Below, in pieces: positions 6,385 to 64,000 of a DNA stretch of 64,000 bases (its first letter is position 1; each line of letters starts with the position of its first letter). The notes beneath the pieces were generated by a model. The model was not told where the DNA came from and did not search any database. It was given only the letters and a program-made list of their open reading frames with translations. Origin of the DNA: Coptis chinensis (Eukaryota; Streptophyta; Magnoliopsida; Ranunculales; Ranunculaceae); contig CM027378.1 of assembly GCA_015680905.1 (NCBI GenBank), forward strand, positions 102,879,501-102,943,500, read 5' to 3'. The translations under genes were made by a program, and so were the position numbers.

Positions 6385-7059
6385 TCAATGCTGCATGTTT
6401 GTAACAAATCTGTGGCCATTTCCTGGGCTAGGACCAGCATCCTTAACCCCGCCGAGAGTTTGAGCCAGCTTGTTGAACTTATGACCACCACCGGGGCTAG
6501 ATACCTTAGCCCCTCCCATAGTGTCAAATTCGACAAACTTATGACCATTGCCGGGGCTAGGGCCAGAGTCCTTGATACCACGAAGACCTAGAGCATTTAC
6601 AGATTTGCGGTGTCCACCTCCTGGGCTAGGGTCAGAGTCCATAATACTGCCAAGCACTTGACTGTGGTGTCTATCACCAGGGCTAGGGCCAGAGTCCTTT
6701 ATACCACCAAGAGCTTGAACATTCACAGATTTGTGGTGTCCACCTCCTGGGCTAGGGACCGAGTCCTTAATATCACCAATAGCTTGAACATCAGATTTGT
6801 GGTGTCCACCTCCTGGGCTAGGACCAGAGTCCTTAATACCGCCAAGAACTTGAACACTACTTACGTAGTTATGGTGTCCCTCTCCTGGACTAGTTCCCGA
6901 ATTCTTGATTGCTCCAAGGGACAAACCATCAACAAAACTCTCAATCGCATTTGATGAGCTGAACACACTCAACACGCGAGCATCAGCTGCAAAGAAAAAA
7001 TAGTTTGCCCAGGGAAGTAGATGAATGAACAATGTAAATGACTTGATTACTTGAGCCAT
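6385..7059 (-). CDS. Secreted multi-peptide precursor, PIP/CEP-like, eight repeats
   Basis: Intronless, 224 residues. The ATG at 7059 begins MAQVIKSF; an upstream extension in this frame has only a TTG. Residues 1-27 form a hydrophobic signal peptide ending in an AxA-type site (FFAADA). After a short variable region come eight tandem units of about 20 residues, each with a core like IKDSGPSPGGGHHK; unit 3 has SVPSP, unit 4 GDRHH, and unit 7 is shortened to SSPGGGH. The SGPSP and GxGH signature matches PAMP-induced peptides (PIP/PIPL), secreted signals cleaved and hydroxylated on proline and sensed by receptor kinases such as RLK7; SPGxGH also resembles CEP hormones. Typical PIP precursors carry one or two units, so eight is unusual. 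A role in defence or root signalling is inference. The frame is intact although surrounding sequence is decayed, suggesting selection or recent origin. Confidence 0.85.
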   Translation of the reverse strand: MAQVIKSFTLFIHLLPWANYFFFAADARVLSVFSSSNAIESFVDGLSLGAIKNSGTSPGEGHHNYVSSVQVLGGIKDSGPSPGGGHHKSDVQAIGDIKDSVPSPGGGHHKSVNVQALGGIKDSGPSPGDRHHSQVLGSIMDSDPSPGGGHRKSVNALGLRGIKDSGPSPGNGHKFVEFDTMGGAKVSSPGGGHKFNKLAQTLGGVKDAGPSPGNGHRFVTNMQH

Positions 7060-7144
7060 GGAGTATAGCAATGTGGCGTATGTCTTAGCTTACAGTTATG
7101 TTCTGAATCACAAGTTTGATTCTTATACAGAATGGGGTTGGGTT

Positions 7145-7154: not shown

Positions 7155-7906
7155 GTTTGGACGTTTGGTGATGGAATCAAGGAGTACACTAGTGTGGTCA
7201 TGATACTTGGTCTGCTGCCGCCACCTTCCATTCATTTCGGGAACCATCCTCCGAGGTTCAAATCAAATATTGAGGAAGAAATTCATGCCTTGTTAATCAC
7301 AATTTCTCAGGCTATGGTCCAAGTTTGAAGGTCAGTTGCCTCTTTTTGACCCGTTATTGAGAACTATCTGATTTGGCTTGGCTCATCTCTGGATCTAGGC
7401 TACAACATTTTACATTGTTAGTTTGACTCATCATTTAATACATAATTACATTCTTGAGGCAGGACTGGTATGTTGCTTGAGAGGAGGCTTTTGAAAGTTG
7501 TAGTCGTACTTTTTGACTGCTTTATGGGTTTTCTCCTCCCCATTAATGTGGCATTATCAAAGTGTTTCCAGCGTTCAACTTAGGTTGCACACTGCACACT
7601 GCACACAAAAGCGTCCGAGAAGTGCTCATATCCCATAGATGATATAGAGTGATATCTTGGTTTTTGGCAAGTATGATCTCGATCGTGTCCAAATTTCTTT
7701 GCCATAATCATCTCTTAAGTCAGAAATGGGTGGAAAGCTGAAAGTCAGAAAAGGAATTGTTGCCGTGGAAATATCGGCGAAATCTTAGTGGGTGAAGAAT
7801 GGGCGATATATATTAGGTTGCAACTTGCAACACGTGTTATTTGAACAACTCCAGGGGTAATTAGGTCATTTCCTACGCGCGTAAAAGCTAAGCCAACACA
7901 ACCTAT

Positions 7907-8141
7907 CTAACTTAGAAAACGAGGGCTTCAACAGTGAATTCATCACGTCATTAATTTTTTTTCCAATTTTATCCTTTTCCAAATACAAATATTACAGCTC
8001 ATGCCATTTGTTTGTTTTATTTTTTTATTTTGTCTTTTGCAGGGGTAAAATGGTAGTTTCACGTCCAGAAATTAATGAAAAATAAAATAAAATCAGAAAT
8101 TGTTAACGTGGCGAAGACACGTACAAAAGAGACTAGTAAAA
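7907..8141. mobile_element. 235 bp insertion in the TATA box of copy 2
   Basis: Copy 1 reads ACCTATAAATACC; copy 2 reads ACCTAT, then 235 bases of AT-rich unique sequence, then TATAAATACC. A TAT triplet flanks both sides, compatible with a 3-base target duplication that rebuilds the TATA box. The ends (CTAACTTAG and AGTAAAA) show no clear terminal inverted repeats, so the class is unknown and a simple deletion in copy 1 is an alternative. Confidence 0.6.
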
Positions 8142-8149
8142 TATAAATA
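8142..8149 (+). promoter_or_regulatory. TATA box of the duplicated promoter, copy 2
   Basis: TATAAATA rebuilt at the right edge of the 235 bp insertion, followed by the same leader as at 619 in copy 1. Confidence 0.5.
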
Positions 8150-9169
8150 CCGAACTGAAGCTTGGATAAAATAATGTATTTCCTTCCCACATTCAGAATT
8201 TTCATGGGAGAAAATTATATTTTTGATTTGGCTGCTTGCAAATCAAACCAGTAGTAAGCTTTCCTATTTCACGATATATATTTATCTGCTACAAACTGAG
8301 ATTTTTTACCACAAAACTTCTTATACAAGAATTTGTGTTTTTTAATTCTTTTAAAATCGCAATTCGTATCTCATTTTCAAAAAATAATTATACGTGTCTC
8401 CATTATTTTATTGATTTCTCGGACCCTAAGCAATTTTCAGTAAACTATGTTTGTCCCATCACACCCTGAGGTTAGCCAGTTTCAGGTTTGTAACTTTGTA
8501 TATTATGATTACGTCAGTATCTTTGGTAGTGTTTATATTTTATTTAAACAATACTACTTGTTGTGACCATGTCTTTTCTTTGTCAATTTTGTGATACATT
8601 GTATTCAATGTACTTCTGTAAGCTAATGGGTGTTCCCATTATCTACTGCTCCCATGGACATATTATGATAACCTTTGGAATAGACAAATTGGTAACCCCT
8701 TTGAATTAAACGTCAACAACTTCATCATATTATATTAATCAACTGTGTTATCCATATTTTCTGCTCATTCTTATGAATATTAAAATAGTGTTTTCGTACA
8801 GCAGCTATACAAAATAAACTTTGCTGAGAGAATTTTTTTTAAATTTGCATTCATTGTTTTGTTTTAAAATCGGCAGAATTACCTAGATGTTTGTTGTTTA
8901 TCCAGGAATACACAATTTTATCTTGTTTTGTTTGTGTAGTTAGGTGTTATGTTTGTTGTTTCTCACTCTGTTTCTTATTAATGTTCTTCTAAAATCTTTT
9001 ACATGTTTCCTAAATGTTTTTGAGACAAACGATGCTGTCGCTAGTGGTTTTTCTCAAGCCAAATATATTTTTCTAGTTTTTGAGACAAAACTTATAGTAA
9101 GAATTCACCTAGGCTGTGCTTGTTTACCCTGTAAATTTTTACTTTTCCATGACGGAATTTGTATTGAAC

Positions 9170-54626: not shown

Positions 54627-57018
54627 TATAACACCCCGTTTATTTTTATTTTATTTTTCATATTTATTAAGATTTAAAAAGTAATAATAATATTAAAAAA
54701 AGATAAAGATAAAGATAAAGATAAAATAAGACAAGATAAAAATGTGGGAGAGTTAGAGGGGTTTGGTTACAACCGAACTCTCTTCTTTTTTTTTGTTAGT
54801 TTTTTTGGGGGTTTTGAAATAGAAGAGAAAAACAAAGAGAAGAAAAAAAAAAAAAGACAGAGAGGGAGAGATAGCTATTGCTTGAGAGTATTTGAAAGAG
54901 AAAGGGGCGGAGGAAGACAACACCTTACCGTTGGTTTTCGAGTTCGGCGGTTATTTCGCTTTCACTAAAGTTTTCGTTTACGATTAATTCTGGTGAGTGG
55001 GCTAATCTTTCTTTCTTTTAAGAAAACTATTTGATTTAATTATATATGTGTTCTACTTGAAATTTTAGTTCTTTGATTTATTGGAACCTTAAGATGAAAT
55101 CAAGTATGGTTAGTTTGATCGATCATGCTGTGTTACTGCTACTGCGAAATTATCCTTATTGTCTATATACCTATGTATTTCGTGTGGTATATAACTATAT
55201 ATATTTAGATGCTAACTGTTGGTCATTTATTAGAAGTGCTCTAGAAACTTAGACGTGTCATAACTTACTACACGTGAGATAGCTTCGGGTAACATCTTCG
55301 GGTATTCGTTTTTATTTTTGGTGAATGGTTTCCGGGTGGCTATCTAAAGTACTTGTTTACTGTTGAGGTAATAAAGCAAGATGGGGACCCTGTTGATGTT
55401 GTCAGATCATATTAGATAGGTTAACTTTGGAAATGGCTTTGGGTAACTTTATTGTTTTTATATATGTGGTCATGTAATCATGTTTGTTTTATGATATTAG
55501 TTTCGAACCATAGATATGCTACTATTGGGAAATGTTTGGTTTTTATACATGATATAGCTACGAGGTAAAGCAAATTAATATACAATTGAATGATCTGTGG
55601 TCAAAAGTGGAAAGGTTTGACTCAGATACATGAATATATTTTATCTGTTCTATGATTAAATACAATGTGGTCTTAGTTGAATTGAAAAAAAAAAAGATGG
55701 TGCTAGTGAAGGGTGATAACGTGTGATTGGAATACTCTATGGAGGATTTATTTGGCTGTGATATTCATTCATACCTATTTATTTCTCCGTGTACATATTT
55801 GTGGACAATGGAACGTGTTATATCTTATTAGCTAAAAAAAATTCTATTGTCGTTTGGGTTTATAAAAATTAATCGGTTTAGTTGATATAAGAACTACAAA
55901 GGCTTGATTCCACTTTTAAAAGATTTGGATACGTAGGCAGCTTTAAACAAAAGTGTAGACACTACACCATATTATATATTATATATTAGTTTTAGTGATA
56001 ACTATATGTGTATAATGTTAGTATTACATTGGGTACGTGATAATGGTTGTTTAAAACGGTATTCATTGAATGTGCCATGAATGACCCGGGTATTCATTGA
56101 ATGTGTCATGAATGACCAGATTCTTTGGACTGCCCTAGAGAGGAACTAAGATATTAAGCCCATGGTTAGTTGTATTATTTGATTATCGCGAAAGTGTTTG
56201 AGTTTACTTTTGAATACCTAATATAATATCTACATATGTTATATAGAAGTTATAACTTTCTTGCGGGGAGGGTAGGACTTAATAATATTTTGTGCAGGAG
56301 GGGCCGGTCCCTACCCTTATAAAGAAATGGATATCGGTAAGTTTTAATTCAATGGTTTAGATATTAAAACGAAGTTATTAGAATGAGTTATATAATGGAA
56401 GTTTTGCTTTGGGAAGAAATTATGCCGGTTAAAATGACGGAACTACATTGCCTTCCAAGCCGTGAATGATTAAGTTATGGGATAATATAAAGTGATTGTT
56501 TGAATAATTAAAGTATGATAATGGTTTTATGTGGTTAGTCTACTCATACCAAAGAAATTCCATTTTGTCAATCTATGTTTGCTTTGTTTTTTTAACGCCG
56601 GTGTGTTCTTGAGAACATAGGTGGAAAGCGCAATGAAACCGCGGTGTTTGATTTGGATTTGATCCGAGAGCGGTCAGGGAGTTTATTTTATTATGTCCGA
56701 TCTTTTGGAAGTATGTAATAACGTAGTTTTCTTTTCATATGACATGAAAATACGATGTTGAAGACCTGTTATTCTTAGAATGGTTTGATGTTTTATTGGG
56801 ACGGAAGATAGATTTTTTTTAATAAAGTAATAAAGAGAATTTTGAAGATTGAATTTGTGGTTAAGATTCTTTATGATGTGGGTTTTAGGTTTTGACATGT
56901 GTCAGATCCACCCTTCCGCCATACCGAAGTTTTTAGACAAGTGAACCAAGTGATGTTTGAAATATTTATATTTCAAATATTCATTTTTTTTAATTGTTTA
57001 GAAATTCGGGCTGTGACA
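54627..57018 (+). mobile_element. Gypsy-like LTR, about 2.4 kb
   Basis: Starts TATAACACCCCG, a variant of the usual TGTAACACCCCG, and ends GGGCTGTGACA. The next bases TTGGTATCATGAGCC (57019-57033) resemble a primer-binding site for initiator tRNA-Met (TGGTATCAGAGCC) with one extra T. A purine-rich leader with GAGAGAGA tracts lies at 54820-54920. No gag or pol follows, so this is a solo LTR or 5' remnant. Confidence 0.7.
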
Positions 57019-57033
57019 TTGGTATCATGAGCC

Positions 57034-57548
57034 GGCATGATTAAAGATCGTTTCTTTGTCATTATATGATGTACTTCGTACTATTTGCATGGACCAGTTC
57101 TCTTTAACATATGAGAAATATATCAATACCAGTTAGATTTGGTATTGATATTCAGTTCACGCTGATAAATTAGAATCACATGTTAAGGGTTGGTAGCTTA
57201 AGTATCTACTGTAAATGGATGTTTTTCATGTAATAGCATTGAGACTTTAATTAGATGCTCAGCATATGATCTGCTTGAATTTCAAAAGTGATACTAATAG
57301 TTAACAGTACATGATATTAAAAAGCATGTGACCTGCTGCCTAAGTTTCTTTTGGTTCAGTTATGCGCTCTTAAAATAAGGTTTTGCTTTATATCATATGG
57401 TTTTGACAAAAGAAAAGGTGATTCCATTGGGCACTCATCAAATTGGATTGGGCAACCCCTAAAAAAAAAAGAAATTTTACAAATTTGCCATATTACAAAT
57501 TTGCCATAAAGCCCAAGCCCAGTAACCAATTCAACCGGTATTGCCAAA
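57034..57548. other. Spacer between LTR and palindrome array
   Basis: Presumed remnant of retrotransposon internal sequence; no open frame of note. Confidence 0.4.
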
Positions 57549-58437
57549 ACGAACCCTCCGTCGTTTGCTTACACTCAAACGACACGACCAGTATGTCGTC
57601 TCGAGTGTACACTCAAACGACTTTGGCGAAGTCTTTCGTTTACACTCAAACGAGACCATGTCGTTTCGTTTACACTCAAATGACATGGTCGCGGTCGTTT
57701 GTGTAAACGTAAAAACCATGACCATGTCGTTTAAGTGAAAAACAAACGACTTCGTAAAGTCGTTTGAGTGTACACTCGCATCGATTATTTGACCAAGTCG
57801 CTTGAGTGTTACTCACACTAACACCGAAACTACGCCGCCATGTAGTTTGAGTGTACACTAAAACTACGCTGCCATGTCGTTTGAGTGTACACTCAAACTA
57901 CGCTGGCGGCCATGTAGTTTGAGTGTATACTGAAACTACGCGGCAATGTCGTTTGAGTGTGCACTCAAACTACATGACCAAGTCGTTTGAGTGTACACTC
58001 AAACTACATGGCAGCGTAGTTTCGCAGTTACTCACACTAACACTCAAACCGCGCTGGCCATGTCGTTTGAGTGTACACTCAAACTACACGGTCATGTCGT
58101 TTGAGTGTACACTCAAACTACATGATCGGCAGTAGTTTGAGTGTACACTCAAACTACATGGCCGCCAGAAGTTTCAGTGTTAGTGTGAGTAACACTCAAA
58201 CGACTTGTCCATATCGTTTGAGTATACACTCAAACGACTTGGCCATCTAGTTTGAGTGTAACTCAAACTCAAAATAACACTCAAACGACATGGTCATGTC
58301 GCCCGAAAGTGTACACTCAAACGACTTGGACATGTAATTTGAGTTTACACTCAAACGACTTGGTCACGCGTGTTTGAGTGTACACTCAAACGACGTGGAC
58401 ACGACTCAAACGATTCCAAATGCACTCAAACGATTTC
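57549..58437. repeat. Palindrome array, cluster 1
   Basis: About 0.9 kb of alternating self-complementary units. The perfect palindrome GTTTGAGTGTACACTCAAAC occurs exactly at 57879, 57985, 58065, 58099, 58135 and 58372, with many one- or two-base variants. Linkers such as GACATGGCCATGTCG and TACATGGCCATGTAG are also self-complementary. The recurring core is GTCGTTTG/CAAACGAC. Unit spacing is irregular (34-106 bases). No gene; short frames here are repeat translation. Confidence 0.9.
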
Positions 58438-58559
58438 AATTGAATTAGAAAAATTGAAACCGATTTAAAAATTGGGTTACATCAATAAAACTACATGCAC
58501 TCTACACTCTACTTTATTTATGTTATGACATAGTATCTTTATAACCAAGTTAAAACATG

Positions 58560-59225
58560 TAATCAAACATGCTATAAAATCTAAAATAATAATTTGTTTT
58601 ATATCTAAACTTGTTATTATTATTATTTTTTCAATTGTGAATCATAAACTAGTTTGGGGTTTAGAGTTTAGAGTTCAAGGTTTAGAAATTTCGTACCAAT
58701 ATATTTCACTTAATTATTTGAAATAATAATTTGTTTTATATCTAAACTTGTTATTTTTTATTTTATTTTTAAAATTGTGAATCATAAAACTAGGTTGAGA
58801 TTTAGGGTTTAGGGTTTAGAGTTATTTACAAATTTCGTGCTAACAAATTTTACTTAATTATTCAAAATAATAATTTGTTTTATTTATAAACTTATTATTT
58901 TTTATTTTCTTTTTCAAATTTTGAATCATAATCTAGTTTGGGGGTTTGGGGTTTGGGTTTAGGGTTTAGGGTTTACAAATTTTTCATCATGACATAAAAA
59001 AAAAAAATTTAATTTCAAACATATTTCACTAAATTATCCAAATCTAAAATAATAACTGTTTTTTATATCTAAACTTGTTATTTTCCATTTTTTATTCAAT
59101 TGTAAATAATAAACTAGTTTGGGGTGTTTACAAATATATTTCACTCAATTATTCAAATATATCAAAATTTCAAATATATATAGAATACTCATTCATTTCC
59201 AGTTTAGAGTTTAGGGTTTACATAG
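58560..59225. repeat. 140-180 bp tandem repeat with telomere-like TTTAGGG
   Basis: AAATAATAATTTGTTTTATA recurs at 58583, 58721, 58864 and diverged at 59046. Units also share AACTTGTTATT, AATTGTGAATCATAAACTAG and GGTTTAGGGTTTAGGG. These are internal repeats, not a telomere. Confidence 0.75.
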
Positions 59226-59227
59226 AA

Positions 59228-59297
59228 TACTCAAGTTTCTCTACATACTCAAGTTTCTCTACACACTCAAGTTTTCTACACACTCAAGTTTCTCTAA
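59228..59297 (+). repeat. 18 bp tandem repeat before a small ORF
   Basis: Four near copies of ACTCAAGTTTCTCTACA end just before the ATG at 59298. Confidence 0.8.
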
Positions 59298-59516
59298 ATG
59301 GAACATGAAGATGAAGAAGAAGTATTTGAGGTAATGTTTGATGTACAACAACAAATTAGAGAAGAACAACAAATTAGAGAAGAGAAAATAGAAGATATGT
59401 TGAAAGTGAAGAAGTGGAACAAAATGTTGAAGGTCAAGGTGAAGAATTTGAAGATCGACAAGTCGAAAGCAAATGAAATTTCGAAATCATCGACGACAAA
59501 ATGCAAACCTAAATAA
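59298..59516 (+). CDS. Small charged coiled-coil ORF inside the repeat complex
   Basis: 72 residues, ATG to TAA. The first 30 are acidic with a QQIREEQQIREE direct repeat; the rest is lysine-rich (KVKKWNKMLKVKVKNLKIDK). A coiled coil is likely. Not recognised; it may be an N-terminal exon or accessory ORF of the neighbouring Mutator-like element, or chance. Confidence 0.4.
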   Translation: MEHEDEEEVFEVMFDVQQQIREEQQIREEKIEDMLKVKKWNKMLKVKVKNLKIDKSKANEISKSSTTKCKPK

Positions 59517-59604
59517 TGAGGTAACACTTGATTAAAATGAATACAAAACACTTGATTGATTGAATGAATGAATGAATGGATGCAAAATGAATGAATGCAA
59601 AACC

Positions 59605-59845
59605 CGAGCCCAAACGACATGGTCGGGTCGTTTGGTAACACTATCAAACGACATGGGCCTGTAGTTTTAGAACACTACGAACGACATGGCGGTGTAGTTT
59701 GAGAACACTACGAACGACATGGTGGGTCGTTTCATTACACTACTGAGAACTACATGGCGTGTCGTTTCATTACACTATAGAACTACATGGCGTCGTTTGG
59801 ACTCTTGATGAAACTACATGGTCGGGTCGTTTGAAACTAAATGCA
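59605..59845. repeat. Palindrome array, cluster 2
   Basis: Shares the core of cluster 1 (GTCGTTTGGTAACACTATC followed by AAACGACATGG; AACTACATGGCGTGTCGTTT). The loops differ from the GAGTGTACACTC of cluster 1. Lies directly before the transposase remnant. Confidence 0.8.
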
Positions 59846-59849
59846 TTGT

Positions 59850-62800
59850 TTGAGACTCTTGTTTTTTATTCTTCTATATGTAGAATTCTTTGCCGCTTAT
59901 CCGAACCGATCTTCGCAAACTCGAATGATGTGGATTGTCAACCGATTTTAAGTGATACAACAGAAATTTTACTACGTAAGAGGTATGATTGAGTAGGCAT
60001 TGATTTCATTTTTTTTTTAATTTTCTAAATATAATTTTATTAGTGTATTAATAATAGTTGTTGTTTTTATGTGTTTAGGTCTTTCATACACGAATGGAGG
60101 CAATCGATTGGGCAACCGCTAGAGGAAGACAAGTTAATGTTGTTGTGGTCATTGAAAAGTCGGAGTGTGCCAAAGGAAACCGAGTAGCAAGATTGAATTT
60201 GGCTTTGCGAGTGCTCGGGTGTGTATCGGTCACACAAGAAGGAAGGCTTAAGAGAAGGCTAATAAGAGAAGGTCGGGAACCAAGAAATCGGGATGTCCAT
60301 TTAAGTTAAAAGGTATTTTCCAACGCCTGCACTGCCGATAGTTGGAAAATTGTCGCTCTTAATGGTGTTCACAACCATCCATTGGCGAAGACCCTTGAAG
60401 GACATGCATTTGCTACTCGACTAACCGCTCCGAGTTCGAAAGTATTTGTCGAGATGAGTAAGTGTGGAATAAAACCTAAACAAATATTGGATTCCATCAA
60501 GAATAGGTATCATGATAACATCTCTAGTATATCCTAAGTCTATACCGCAAAGCGCGAAGGTGAGGAAATCGATATGAAGCGGTCTCACACAATTAATGAG
60601 ATTGGCGGAGTTGTTAGCAAAAGAACATTATTTTGAGGAGTTGAGACAGGATGAGAATACCGAGGAGATAACGGATTGTTATGGGCCCATCCGTAAGGTG
60701 TTAAGTTGGCTCGGACTTTTCCAACAGGTTTTTCATGTTAGACGCTACCTACAAAACTAACAGTATCGGTGGGCCTTTCGCACAGCTTTGTTGGGGTGAC
60801 TTCAACATGGAAATCTTTCACCGCGGTGTCGTGCCGCTTCACCAAACAACAAACGACTATGACTATGAGTGGGCCCCTACATCATTTTAGTGGCTTGCTT
60901 GGTGACATAAGTCCATCCGCGGATCGGGTCCGATGTGGGGATTAGCCCCGATGAGTGCTTGCCGACGAGAGTTTTTCCTAACGCACACAAGCATCTATGT
61001 AGATGGCATATCGCTATGCGCGCCCTTTCAAAATGTTACGATATTTTTCCAACTACGTAACTTGTAGAGAAGGCCCAGTTCGTGGAACACTCAGAGTCAA
61101 ATCGAAGATGAGGTTATTTTCCGGCGTAGATGGGATGCTTTGGAAAAATATTACGGGGTTGAGTACTCCAATTTTGTTTGTTATTTCGCGAGACTTGGTT
61201 TGGTTTCCTCAAGGGATCGATTCGTATGTTGTTGGACTGACCAACACATTCACTTTGGGAGTACAACGACCAATAGAGTTGAAGCGGTCTCATGCTCGGT
61301 GAAGCGTGTACTAGGAAATGCAACCGTCATGATTTTTGAGTATGTTTAGCTTAATCCACCCGATTCTAGAGATCCGGATGTCCGAGATTAGAGCTACCTT
61401 CCGAGAAGTATGATTGTAACTCAAGCACCACCACCGGATTCCTTTGTTTCGTGAACTCGTGAGGCCTTTGTCTCACGCAAGTGTTTAGACTTGTTATTTG
61501 AAGAAATAGATACCCGCGTAAAGCGTGTTAAAGATGGAGAGATAAGGTGTTGGTGCTATTTTGCGACGAGTCATGGACCGCCATGTGCTCATGAATTAAT
61601 TGAGTTTGAAGAGCAAGAGCGGTCCATCCCTTTGTCCGCTATCGACCCTTTTGGAAAACATTGTCCGCTTCTCCCTCCCAATGTGTCGGGTGTTGGTCCC
61701 GATGTTGCACCTTCGATGGACTTGTTCATGAATATGTTTGCAATGGTTTTCGAAGAAGAAAGAGGGTTATGATTAGGAAGCTTATGGAGATTGCCGTACC
61801 GTAAAGTACATGGCTAGTACCGCCTTGTGAGGAAGCAAAACCAAAGGTCGGCCGAAAGGTAGCAGCAGCGTAAAGCTTCAAACCGAGATGATAACTCTTC
61901 AAAGCGAGATCCATCTCATTTTGAACATTCTCAACGCGGACCATGAAGAGTGGGTCTCCACAACCAAACACTACGCCCCACCCAAAACAACCACACTACA
62001 CCAAGAAAGAAGTCTTCTCCAAAACTACCAACCCAAAACATCCACACCACACCAACAAAATAAGCCTTCTCCAAAACACCAAAACAACCACACCAAGAAA
62101 TAAACCTTCTCCCAAAACACCAAAAACAACCACACCACGAAATAAGCCTTCTCCAAAAAACAGTCACACCACGAAAATGTGAGAGATGGCTTAGACTTTG
62201 GAAAGACGAGGGTCCTAAGGATTACGGGTTGGATATTCCCGGAAGAAATGCATAAATACATTGTTAGAGTCCATGACCCCACACTGTTGGCGATGACAAC
62301 TGCGGTTATAGAGCTTTTCTCGCATTGCATTAGGAAGAAGTCAAGAAGAATGGCCACAGATGAGAAGGGAGTTGTACGAAGAGTTTATCGATAACCTCCC
62401 CTTTATTGTACTTTGTACAATCAAAGTGAGGTTTTGTATTCGATGAAGGAAATCCTACATGAAGAAGGTTACGCGACCCTTAAATAAGTGGATGAGCATG
62501 CCTTTTGGTGGATACTTATTTGCTTCAAGATTTAATGTTGTCCTTATGCATTTAGGAGCTCGCCGCTGCTTCCTTCTCATGCCGAGAACCCAAGCAAATC
62601 CTCGAGAGAGTGACCCAAGTGTTGGGTAGCATTATGTTGGTGGAAATCATTTTGTCAATGTTGAACTTGTTGAAGATTGTCCGGTTCCTCCAGTAATGCT
62701 GCCAATGGCTTAGAGCTCGATATGATATTGCTGAAAGTTGGAATTTGGCCTTGACAGTAAGGCAATTGCAATTTATGGCATTGAACATTCCCAATTTAAT

Positions 62801-62850
62801 ATGGGAAAATGAGCTCGTTGAAGACCCAACAGTACATGTTATCGACTAAG
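59850..62850 (+). pseudogene. Mutator-like (MULE) transposase with SWIM and OTU-like domains
   Basis: Broken into many frames, but conserved pieces appear in order. FAR1-type N-terminal region: ATARGRQVNVVVVIEKSE (60110), RKSGCPFKLKG (60283), VHNHPLAKTLEGHAF (60368). MULE core: LDATYKTNSIGG (60740), HLCRWHIAMRALSKC (60992), then FGSTTTNRVEAV (61250). SWIM finger: CWCYFATSHGPPCAHEL (61540). A Thr/Lys/Pro-rich linker (61950-62180). OTU-protease-like motifs DDNCGYRAF (about 62294) and GGNHFVNVELVEDCPVPP (62640). A possible intron lies at 59983-60078. Frameshifts and stops indicate no intact protein. Family: MULE transposase fused to an OTU cysteine-protease domain, known in several plant genomes. 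Confidence 0.85.
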
Positions 62851-62979
62851 TTGTTTGTATGTTGTCGATATGATATTTTGATGTAATTTGTATTTTGATG
62901 TAATTTGGAACAAGTGTAATTTGATTTGATTTTTATGTTATCAATGTTAGGGCTTTTATTTGATTTGATTTGGAAATCG

Positions 62980-63340
62980 AGTAATCGACTAAGTTGATTC
63001 GGACGGCAAATTTTGAAATCGAGCGATCGACTAAGTGATATATTGATGTAATTTGATATTTTGATGTAATTTGGAACAAATGTAATTTTATTTTATTTTT
63101 TTGTTATTTGGAAATAATGTTAGGGCTTTTATTTGATTTGATTTGGAAATCGAGTGATCGATTAAGTTGATTCGGATGGCAATCGAAAGTGATTTGGAAA
63201 TAGAGCGATCGATTAAGTTGATTCGGACGTCAATCGAAAGTGATTTTGAAATCGAATGATCGACTAAGTTGATTCGAAGGCAATCGAAAGGATCGACTAG
63301 TTGATTCGGACCGCAATCGAAAGTGATTTGAAATAACGTT
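62980..63340. repeat. 51 bp tandem repeat
   Basis: About five diverged units of the form GATTTGGAAATCGAGTGATC, GATTAAGTTGATTCGGA and GGCAATCGAAAGT, best ordered at 63140-63340. Preceded by a looser pair of ATTTGATGTAATTTGG stretches (62880-63120). Confidence 0.75.
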
Positions 63341-63359
63341 CAGTATGTTGTCAATAATG

Positions 63360-63640
63360 ACCGAAACTACACGGTGAGGTCGTTTGGTTTTAATACAAAA
63401 CGACCGGCCGCCATCGTTTGGTCTAAAGGGAAAACGATGTGGCCATGTCGTTTGGCCTTTAGACCAAACGATGGCCATGTCGTTTGGCCTTTAGACCAAA
63501 CGATCCGGGCCGGGTCGATTTGGGATTAAAAGCAAACGATCCGCCGTGGTCGCGTTTTCAGATAAAGGAAAAACGATTCTGGCCGAGGTCGTTTGGCCTT
63601 TATGCCAAACGATCGCACGGGTCGTTTGGAAGAAAAATTT
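63360..63640. repeat. Palindrome array, cluster 3
   Basis: Alternating GTCGTTTGGCCTTTAGACC and AAACGATGGCCATGTCG, each self-complementary or nearly so, with the same TCGTTTG/CAAACGA core as clusters 1 and 2 but GGCCTTTAGACC loops. Confidence 0.85.
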
Positions 63641-63674
63641 TTCAAAATTCGTTTTTGTTTTACAACACTTTCAT

Positions 63675-63900: not shown

Positions 63901-64000
63901 ACATCCATCAAACTAAATTACAAAGTTACAAATCCTAAACTGAAACAAATCAACTATAGTGCCCACCAATGTACTTGCACCTAGTCAAGTTGTACGCCTG
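63901..64000. other. Window end
   Basis: AT-rich text ending in unique sequence; nothing supported. Confidence 0.4.

Follow-up and report, generated by a model that had tools for sequence, protein, structure and literature searches.

The window examined here, a stretch of 64,000 nucleotides of the Coptis chinensis genome, holds a dense array of short palindromes beside a degenerate transposase gene. What is the working unit of such an array, and what, if anything, reads it? The original prediction saw palindromes joined by palindromic linkers and able to form hairpins or cruciforms, and it suggested a multiplied protein-binding site, perhaps for the nearby transposase.

Half-sites and spacing in the three arrays

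Array A1 (57546..58434, no strand assigned) contains 45 half-sites, mostly alternating in orientation, and is located upstream of the transposase gene. The predicted palindrome, GTTTGAGTGTACACTCAAAC, was indeed counted six times, starting at 57879, 57985, 58065, 58099, 58135 and 58372 (the last copy ends at 58391), and the copy at 58135 is contained in a 26-bp palindrome at 58132-58157. A1 has six perfect palindromes of at least 20 bp; 500 dinucleotide shuffles averaged 0.002 of these and never gave more than 1. The constant core was confirmed as GTCGTTTG, and its multiplication in alternating orientation is borne out by same-orientation neighbours in just 8 of 44 cases. The linkers, which had been called palindromic themselves, are palindromic to a weak degree (36% of the opposed linker bases in A1 are complementary). 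The earlier observation is partly confirmed; it had overlooked A2 and A3, two more arrays built on this core.

All three arrays are built on one 8-bp half-site, GTCGTTTG, with the variant GTAGTTTG; the two site types occur side by side in A1-A3 and are a C/A transversion apart. A2 (59600..59870) is located within the predicted first intron of the transposase gene, and A3 (63355..63640) lies between the transposase and an antisense gene for a plant-mobile-domain (PMD) protein; neither is assigned to a strand. Counted as matches with at most two mismatches from GTCGTTTG, the half-sites number 45 in A1, 13 in A2 and 15 in A3. In an unbiased 8-mer count, GTCGTTTG was the top word common to the three arrays (17, 5 and 5 copies), and ten canonical 8-mers were common to all of them, compared with a shuffle average of 0.2. 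The exact word occurs 29 times in the window: 17 copies in A1 (57540-58450), five each in A2 and A3, a single copy in coding sequence and another at position 55849. The arrays therefore hold 27 exact cores, whereas the 2.8-kb coding region and the 57.5 kb on the left hold one each. No half-site within one mismatch was found in 58451-59297. A1 is the sole one of the three arrays with perfect palindromes of at least 10 bp inside its own bounds, and scans of A2 and A3 within their bounds gave none; the right border of A3 is crossed by a 12-bp palindrome that lacks the core, GAAAAATTTTTC (63632-63643). Long perfect palindromes thus mark A1 alone, and the feature common to the three arrays is the paired half-site.

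The arrangement of the pairs was also similar. Same-orientation neighbours made up 3 of 12 in A2 and 1 of 14 in A3. The tail-to-tail pair, GTCGTTTG-N10-CAAACGAC, had a gap of exactly 10 bp in 10/18 (A1), 2/4 (A2, the others being 9 bp) and 5/6 (A3) cases, and the head-to-head gap was exactly 8 bp in 10/18, 4/5 and 3/7 cases, respectively. With offsets scored from exact sites alone, which leaves the partner unselected, the inverted partner at +18 (the 10-bp gap) scored 4.3, 5.0 and 6.0 of 8 in A1, A2 and A3 (background 1.8-2.0), ranking second, second and first among the inverted offsets. The inverted offset -16 (the 8-bp gap) was the best in A1 (5.0) and A2 (6.4) and weak in A3 (3.6 of 8). The tail linkers are AGTGTACACT in A1, GTAACACTAT or AGAACACTA in A2, and of the GCCTTTAGAC type in A3. 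The A2 linkers are unlike those of A1; as ACACT is common to both, the clear linker contrast is that of A1/A2 versus A3. Because the half-sites were picked by similarity to the core, their conservation is inflated; beside exact sites, the cross-array identity of the unselected partner is modest (0.40, 0.44 and 0.49), versus 0.25, 0.22 and 0.34 for the linkers.

The core CpG is mostly intact. Among the 73 half-sites, the CpG position reads CG in 50, AG in 18, TG in one, CA in one and something else in three. Within the arrays the CpG observed/expected ratio lies at 1.33-1.62; the window to their left has 0.55. The arrays are not alone in their high values, since the ratio is also raised in the short stretch 62851-63354 (2.67) and in exon 1 and the remaining intron (1.06-1.30). 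The intact core CpG fits low methylation, recent copying or selection alike, without choosing among them.

The Mutator-like element and its copies in the genome

The arrays are part of a degenerate Mutator-like (MULE) element that begins at 57417. Its left end (57417..57460, + strand) reads GGTGATTCCATTGGGCACTCATCAAATTGGATTGGGC..., and related sequence is found inverted at both ends of non-autonomous relatives of about 1 kb. The element starts with GGTGATTCC; alignments of its copies begin between 57404 and 57429, several of them at 57417, and GGTGATT ends were seen when the ends of 19 loci were set side by side. Inverted ends were found in the non-autonomous relative loci. In six two-ended loci, with offsets searched, the target duplication scored 9/9 (L012), 8/9 (L023), 8/9 (L026), 7/9 (L018), 6/9 (L020) and 5/9 (L017). 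The right end of the window copy was sought in two ways: paired duplications and inverted ends scored no higher than in shuffles, and inverted similarity reached the level of the best shuffle without passing it. The homology between the window copy and L024, a less broken copy, ends at 66873, with no inverted ends there. Of the features that mark a MULE, the transposase domain was found in L024, and inverted ends with a duplication of about 9 bp were found in the relatives only. CACTA elements have CACTA ends, a 3-bp duplication and a Tnp2-type transposase; a CACTA assignment was rejected on the GGTGATT ends, the 9-bp duplication (L012) and the MULE domain.

Between A1 and the gene, an AT-rich 144-bp unit is repeated in tandem and includes telomere-like runs of GGGTTTA (58583..58966, + strand); this repeat also aligns in other element copies. 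From reading frames and splice sites, a degenerate first transposase exon is predicted at 59298..59520 (+ strand), followed by a predicted GT...AG intron 1 at 59521..60078 (+ strand) that holds A2; one frame spans this intron as NLNNE|VFHTR. The transposase pseudogene continues at 60079..62850 (+ strand), with an AFT/FAR1-type DNA-binding domain, a MULE domain and a CxCx9CxH motif, which is SWIM-like and was seen by eye. Single reading frames of the window gave no Pfam match above cut-off. With the pieces joined by hand, AFT scored 22.3 bits (cut-off 21.6), and FAR1 (17.3) and MULE (19.8) were below their cut-offs. In L024, the FAR1 (1.8e-7), MULE (3.4e-19; 69.5 bits, cut-off 27.6) and ZSWIM RNaseH-like (2.6e-9) domains were all above cut-off. 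The C-terminal part presumably resembles plant OTU-like proteins; Pfam gave no convincing match for it in the window copy or L024.

The second gene is antisense and encodes the PMD protein past the window edge; its possible 3' tail, inferred from the frame, enters the window at 63950..64000 (- strand). The PMD domain was located at L009:845-1855, which corresponds to 64845-65855 on the window scale. In the window's own copy (L009), the match was 3.2e-16 at L009:1334-1855 and 1.7e-4, below cut-off, at L009:845-1150; the copy formed by L024 and L049 gave 2.6e-32. The element belongs to a family, here called MULE-PMD, whose noncoding DNA holds the paired half-sites in three arrays. About 24-28 kb to the right of the window, a site pair (C2:102967712) and a transposase match (C2:102971111) probably mark a second copy. 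Elsewhere in the window, a 234-aa open frame (6385-7089, - strand) has a hydrophobic stretch near the N-terminus and several DSGPSPGxGHH repeats, and resembles a multi-copy CEP-type peptide hormone precursor. A direct duplication is also present at 1-2342 and 7295-9168 (99% for 1-613 versus 7295-7906; 93% for 1569-2342 versus 8418-9168).

The genome (935.6 Mb, 116 contigs) was searched with the 23-mer GTCGTTTGAGTGTACACTCAAAC, which gave 626 matches (296 on the + and 330 on the - strand, a fully mirror-image site being counted twice), compared with none for the reversed control. The exact pair with a 10-bp gap was found 559 times (reversed control 0), a number inflated by the shared descent of family copies, which makes these pairs less than 559 independent events. 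With any gap of 0-30 bp there were 653 pairs (control 3); about 86% of the pairs are therefore at one of 31 spacings, provided that the variable-gap and fixed searches count alike. The head-to-head search gave 676 pairs (control 1), with a gap of exactly 8 bp in 41 of the 50 matches listed. Several unlike linkers were found between the pairs among the matches listed, and the number of exact sites per array varies between loci. In another repeat, L051 (C1:40260900-40262000), half-site and spacing are unchanged and the linkers are of the GGACTTAGTC type. A scan of viral contigs for one site pair gave no match.

The sampled clusters are linked to the MULE. The first 100 listed of the 626 places form 58 small clusters (63 places were entered, and the rest fall in the same clusters), of which 23 are spread along C1 from 0.17 to 83.6 Mb. 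The element end sequence was present in 19 of 19 sampled clusters (the first 19 consecutive ones on C1) and transposase homology in 10 of 19, which agrees with the MULE association suggested originally. Of the 58 listed clusters, sixteen lie upstream of a listed transposase match (150 of 1076 candidates are listed), at a distance of 2.0-3.9 kb, and one more is 7.8 kb away on the transposase's other side; these are 17 clusters within 8 kb, compared with 0.19 by chance. Moreover, 60 of 150 listed PMD matches (of 2128 candidates) are at most 15 kb from a listed transposase, all of them downstream and convergent (chance 1.5); the other 90 are without a listed transposase nearby. A MULE-free centromeric satellite, which would have spoken against the original prediction, was rejected for the listed and sampled places, as the listed GTCGTTTGAGTGTACACTCAAAC places are dispersed in small clusters and the 19 sampled ones carry the element end. 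No A1-type 23-mer cluster is among the matches listed for C1 at 40.1-63.5 Mb; other site-pair forms and transposase matches do occur at about 40-63 Mb of C1.

Candidate readers of the half-sites

With some reservation, we favour the reading that the arrays are cis-acting, putative sites for a dimeric DNA-binding protein tied to the MULE-PMD element. Such a protein would read the mirror-image pairs, and the many site copies would give avidity and family specificity; the element might thereby be bound, kept accessible or transposed, its coding sequence being left nearly site-free. Copying of a mirror-image unit would have produced the perfect palindromes of A1 as a side effect. With their fixed spacing, the mirror-image pairs look more like a protein landing strip than working hairpins, and the interpretation given in the original prediction is partly supported. 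The transposase and the PMD protein as readers are two versions of this dimeric-protein reading and do not exclude it.

It is possible, though we hold it tentatively, that the reader is the transposase, whose FAR1/AFT-type domain would bind the half-sites to assemble the transposition complex. The domain is present in the transposase of the window copy and of L024, and the non-autonomous copies of about 1 kb retain the element ends together with half-sites. CACTA elements with subterminal repeats offer an analogue of such transposase-assembly sites. A THAP domain is likewise described as binding the repeats of the long ends of Galileo in the available part of PMC3688188. However, A2 is in a predicted intron and A3 between two genes, not at the element ends, and such intronic and intergenic positions resemble the binding places of VANC more than a transposition end. 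As A2 and A3 are inside the element and a PMD gene is present, a regulator is a serious alternative to the transposase as the reader.

This regulator might be the PMD protein encoded by the element, which would act on element silencing either by itself or as part of a complex; we regard this version as unlikely. The PMD gene was found in both copies examined, and the downstream, convergent placement of the 60 listed PMD matches far exceeds chance. The accessible text of PMC5418596 speculates that PMDs captured by MULEs serve in anti-silencing of transposable elements. The PMD version was suggested because the half-site resembles CATGCAGTTT (DOWN), a promoter motif of MAIN/MAIL1-dependent Arabidopsis genes. 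Against a half-site matrix that reads ..CCATGTCGTTTG.. and was compiled from 595 sites in the tail of the window, the 19 loci and L049, CATGCAGTTT has its best fit with CAT in front of the core. Before correction, this fit is equalled by 0.39% of random 10-mers and likewise by 0.39% of the permutations of CATGCAGTTT. Four VANC motifs (VANC21, VANC6) did no better than 16-69% of random words. However, the DOWN comparison rests on one instance, and with five motifs compared the corrected value is about 0.02; the sole mismatch of CATGCAGTTT to the GTAGTTTG variant hits a nearly invariant T, and CAT, the commonest prefix, precedes just 68 of 257 exact half-sites. The likeness to DOWN is therefore a lead. 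The boldest reading, which we consider rather improbable, is that the captured PMD protein reads paired CATGT(C/A)GTTTG half-sites on its own element and that the host MAIN/MAIL1 DOWN motif is the same code.

The PMD version matters since plant MULEs can carry captured PMD genes of unexplained purpose, and the route of the host PMD proteins MAIN/MAIL1 to their targets is an open question. The MULE-PMD family offers a defined, repeated and closely spaced DNA target beside a PMD gene in many natural copies, and a single binding assay on this target could settle whether PMD proteins read DNA. If the PMD protein is the reader, the arrays would expose how PMD proteins find DNA and, to our knowledge, would be the first target of a PMD encoded by a transposable element.

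The favoured dimeric-protein reading must also be weighed against a neutral minisatellite, in which a mirror-image 34-bp unit has spread in the element family by slippage and unequal exchange, with no protein reader; we consider this improbable. A2 evolves faster than its flanking intron. In intron 1 of 11 aligned copies, the identity was 0.878 for core columns, 0.846 for control words, part of which share bases with the core, 0.811 for other array columns and 0.933 for the flanking intron; misaligned repeats may in themselves depress the identity of the array. Since the core columns are less alike than the flanking intron, single sites are not frozen; the word, orientation and spacing persist. 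Such turnover in A2 resembles that of VANC targets, yet it also fits a neutral minisatellite. The number of exact sites per array also differs between loci, and the pairs share descent. However, descent alone does not readily explain that the core and spacing persist while the linkers differ (A1/A2, A3 and the L051 family), nor that the coding sequence, with one exact core, is nearly site-free.

A host transcription factor recruited by the element, with the arrays used as promoter or enhancer sites, is less probable still: A1 precedes the predicted transposase start by about 0.9-1.8 kb, whereas A3 lies between two 3' ends. This core is not known as the site of a host factor, FAR1, WRKY and AFT included. 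The least probable reading is that hairpin or cruciform DNA, or double-stranded RNA from the array, is the working part: all arrays fold better than shuffles (z -30.9 for A1 with 20 shuffles, -4.4 for A2 and -12.0 for A3), and with the cores kept no linker shuffle matched the native fold in A1 (0/25) or A3 (0/200), but 115 of 200 folded as well in A2, whose linkers thus contribute no pairing, and neither A2 nor A3 has a perfect palindrome of at least 10 bp inside its bounds. Extra linker pairing is therefore not common to all arrays, and hairpins or cruciforms, raised in the original prediction, are not supported as a feature of all three.

Comparison with known systems

A close likeness to the putative sites is in the Arabidopsis VANDAL elements, also MULEs, in which the available parts of PMC5735166 and PMC10398659 describe short tandem motifs of VANC in introns, intergenic and upstream noncoding DNA. 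In the same part of PMC5735166, the VANC6 motif types AGTTGTCC and AGTTGTAC coexist one base apart, and VANC target arrays turn over fast. The arrays reported here share the noncoding location, two types one base apart (GTCGTTTG/GTAGTTTG) and the rapid turnover. They differ in the motif, and the accessory gene found is a PMD, not VANC: in the reading frames of the second gene of two copies, PMD (PF10536) was the sole match, and no VANC-type protein (DUF1985/DUF287) was found. Mirror-image pairs at a fixed 8/10-bp spacing are absent from the available VANDAL description (PMC5735166). The element ends are recognisable, whereas those of VANDALs are degenerate. The VANDAL/VANC system is also marked by a loss of DNA methylation that the protein induces.

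Muta1 and other foldback-type MULEs share the superfamily, a target duplication of 8-9 bp and short-spaced repeats near the ends (PMC5225508, in part). However, Muta1 is described there with 12-bp tandem copies inside the TIR, whereas the present pairs are inverted and also intronic and intergenic. Foldback transposons have long inverted ends made of subrepeats on either side; here A1 is near the left end, A2 and A3 are internal, and a right end was not found in the searches of the window copy. Galileo likewise has many short sites in its repeats, with specificity proposed to come from their number; in the available text it is a P-superfamily element with another DNA-binding domain and demonstrated binding, whereas the present sites are putative (PMC3688188). 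The MULE-Solanaceae_1 type is also a SWIM-type MULE with an antisense PMD; the available portion of PMC6446971 gives it no TIRs and leaves arrays unmentioned.

The DOWN motif marks genes dependent on MAIN/MAIL1/PP7L, according to the accessible parts of PMC9899485 and PMC7156037. DOWN (CATGCAGTTT) may be compared with the half-site in the forms CATGTAGTTTG and CATGTCGTTTG, and PMD proteins occur in both settings; in these sources, DOWN sites are in promoters, and neither paired arrays nor direct PMD binding is described. Whether the complex makes contact with chromatin is given as not known in the available text of PMC9899485.

A literature search, judged mostly by title, gave no description of a mirror-image 8/10-bp array with a PMD partner, and one on the motif strings gave, by title, no paper on transposon arrays. 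Should the half-sites have a reader, the control that noncoding motif arrays exert in the VANDALs of Arabidopsis would extend to another MULE lineage and another accessory gene. VANDALs and MULEs with repeat-built ends already provide examples of motif arrays in MULEs, and the mirror-image 8/10-bp layout with a PMD gene is a variant of them.
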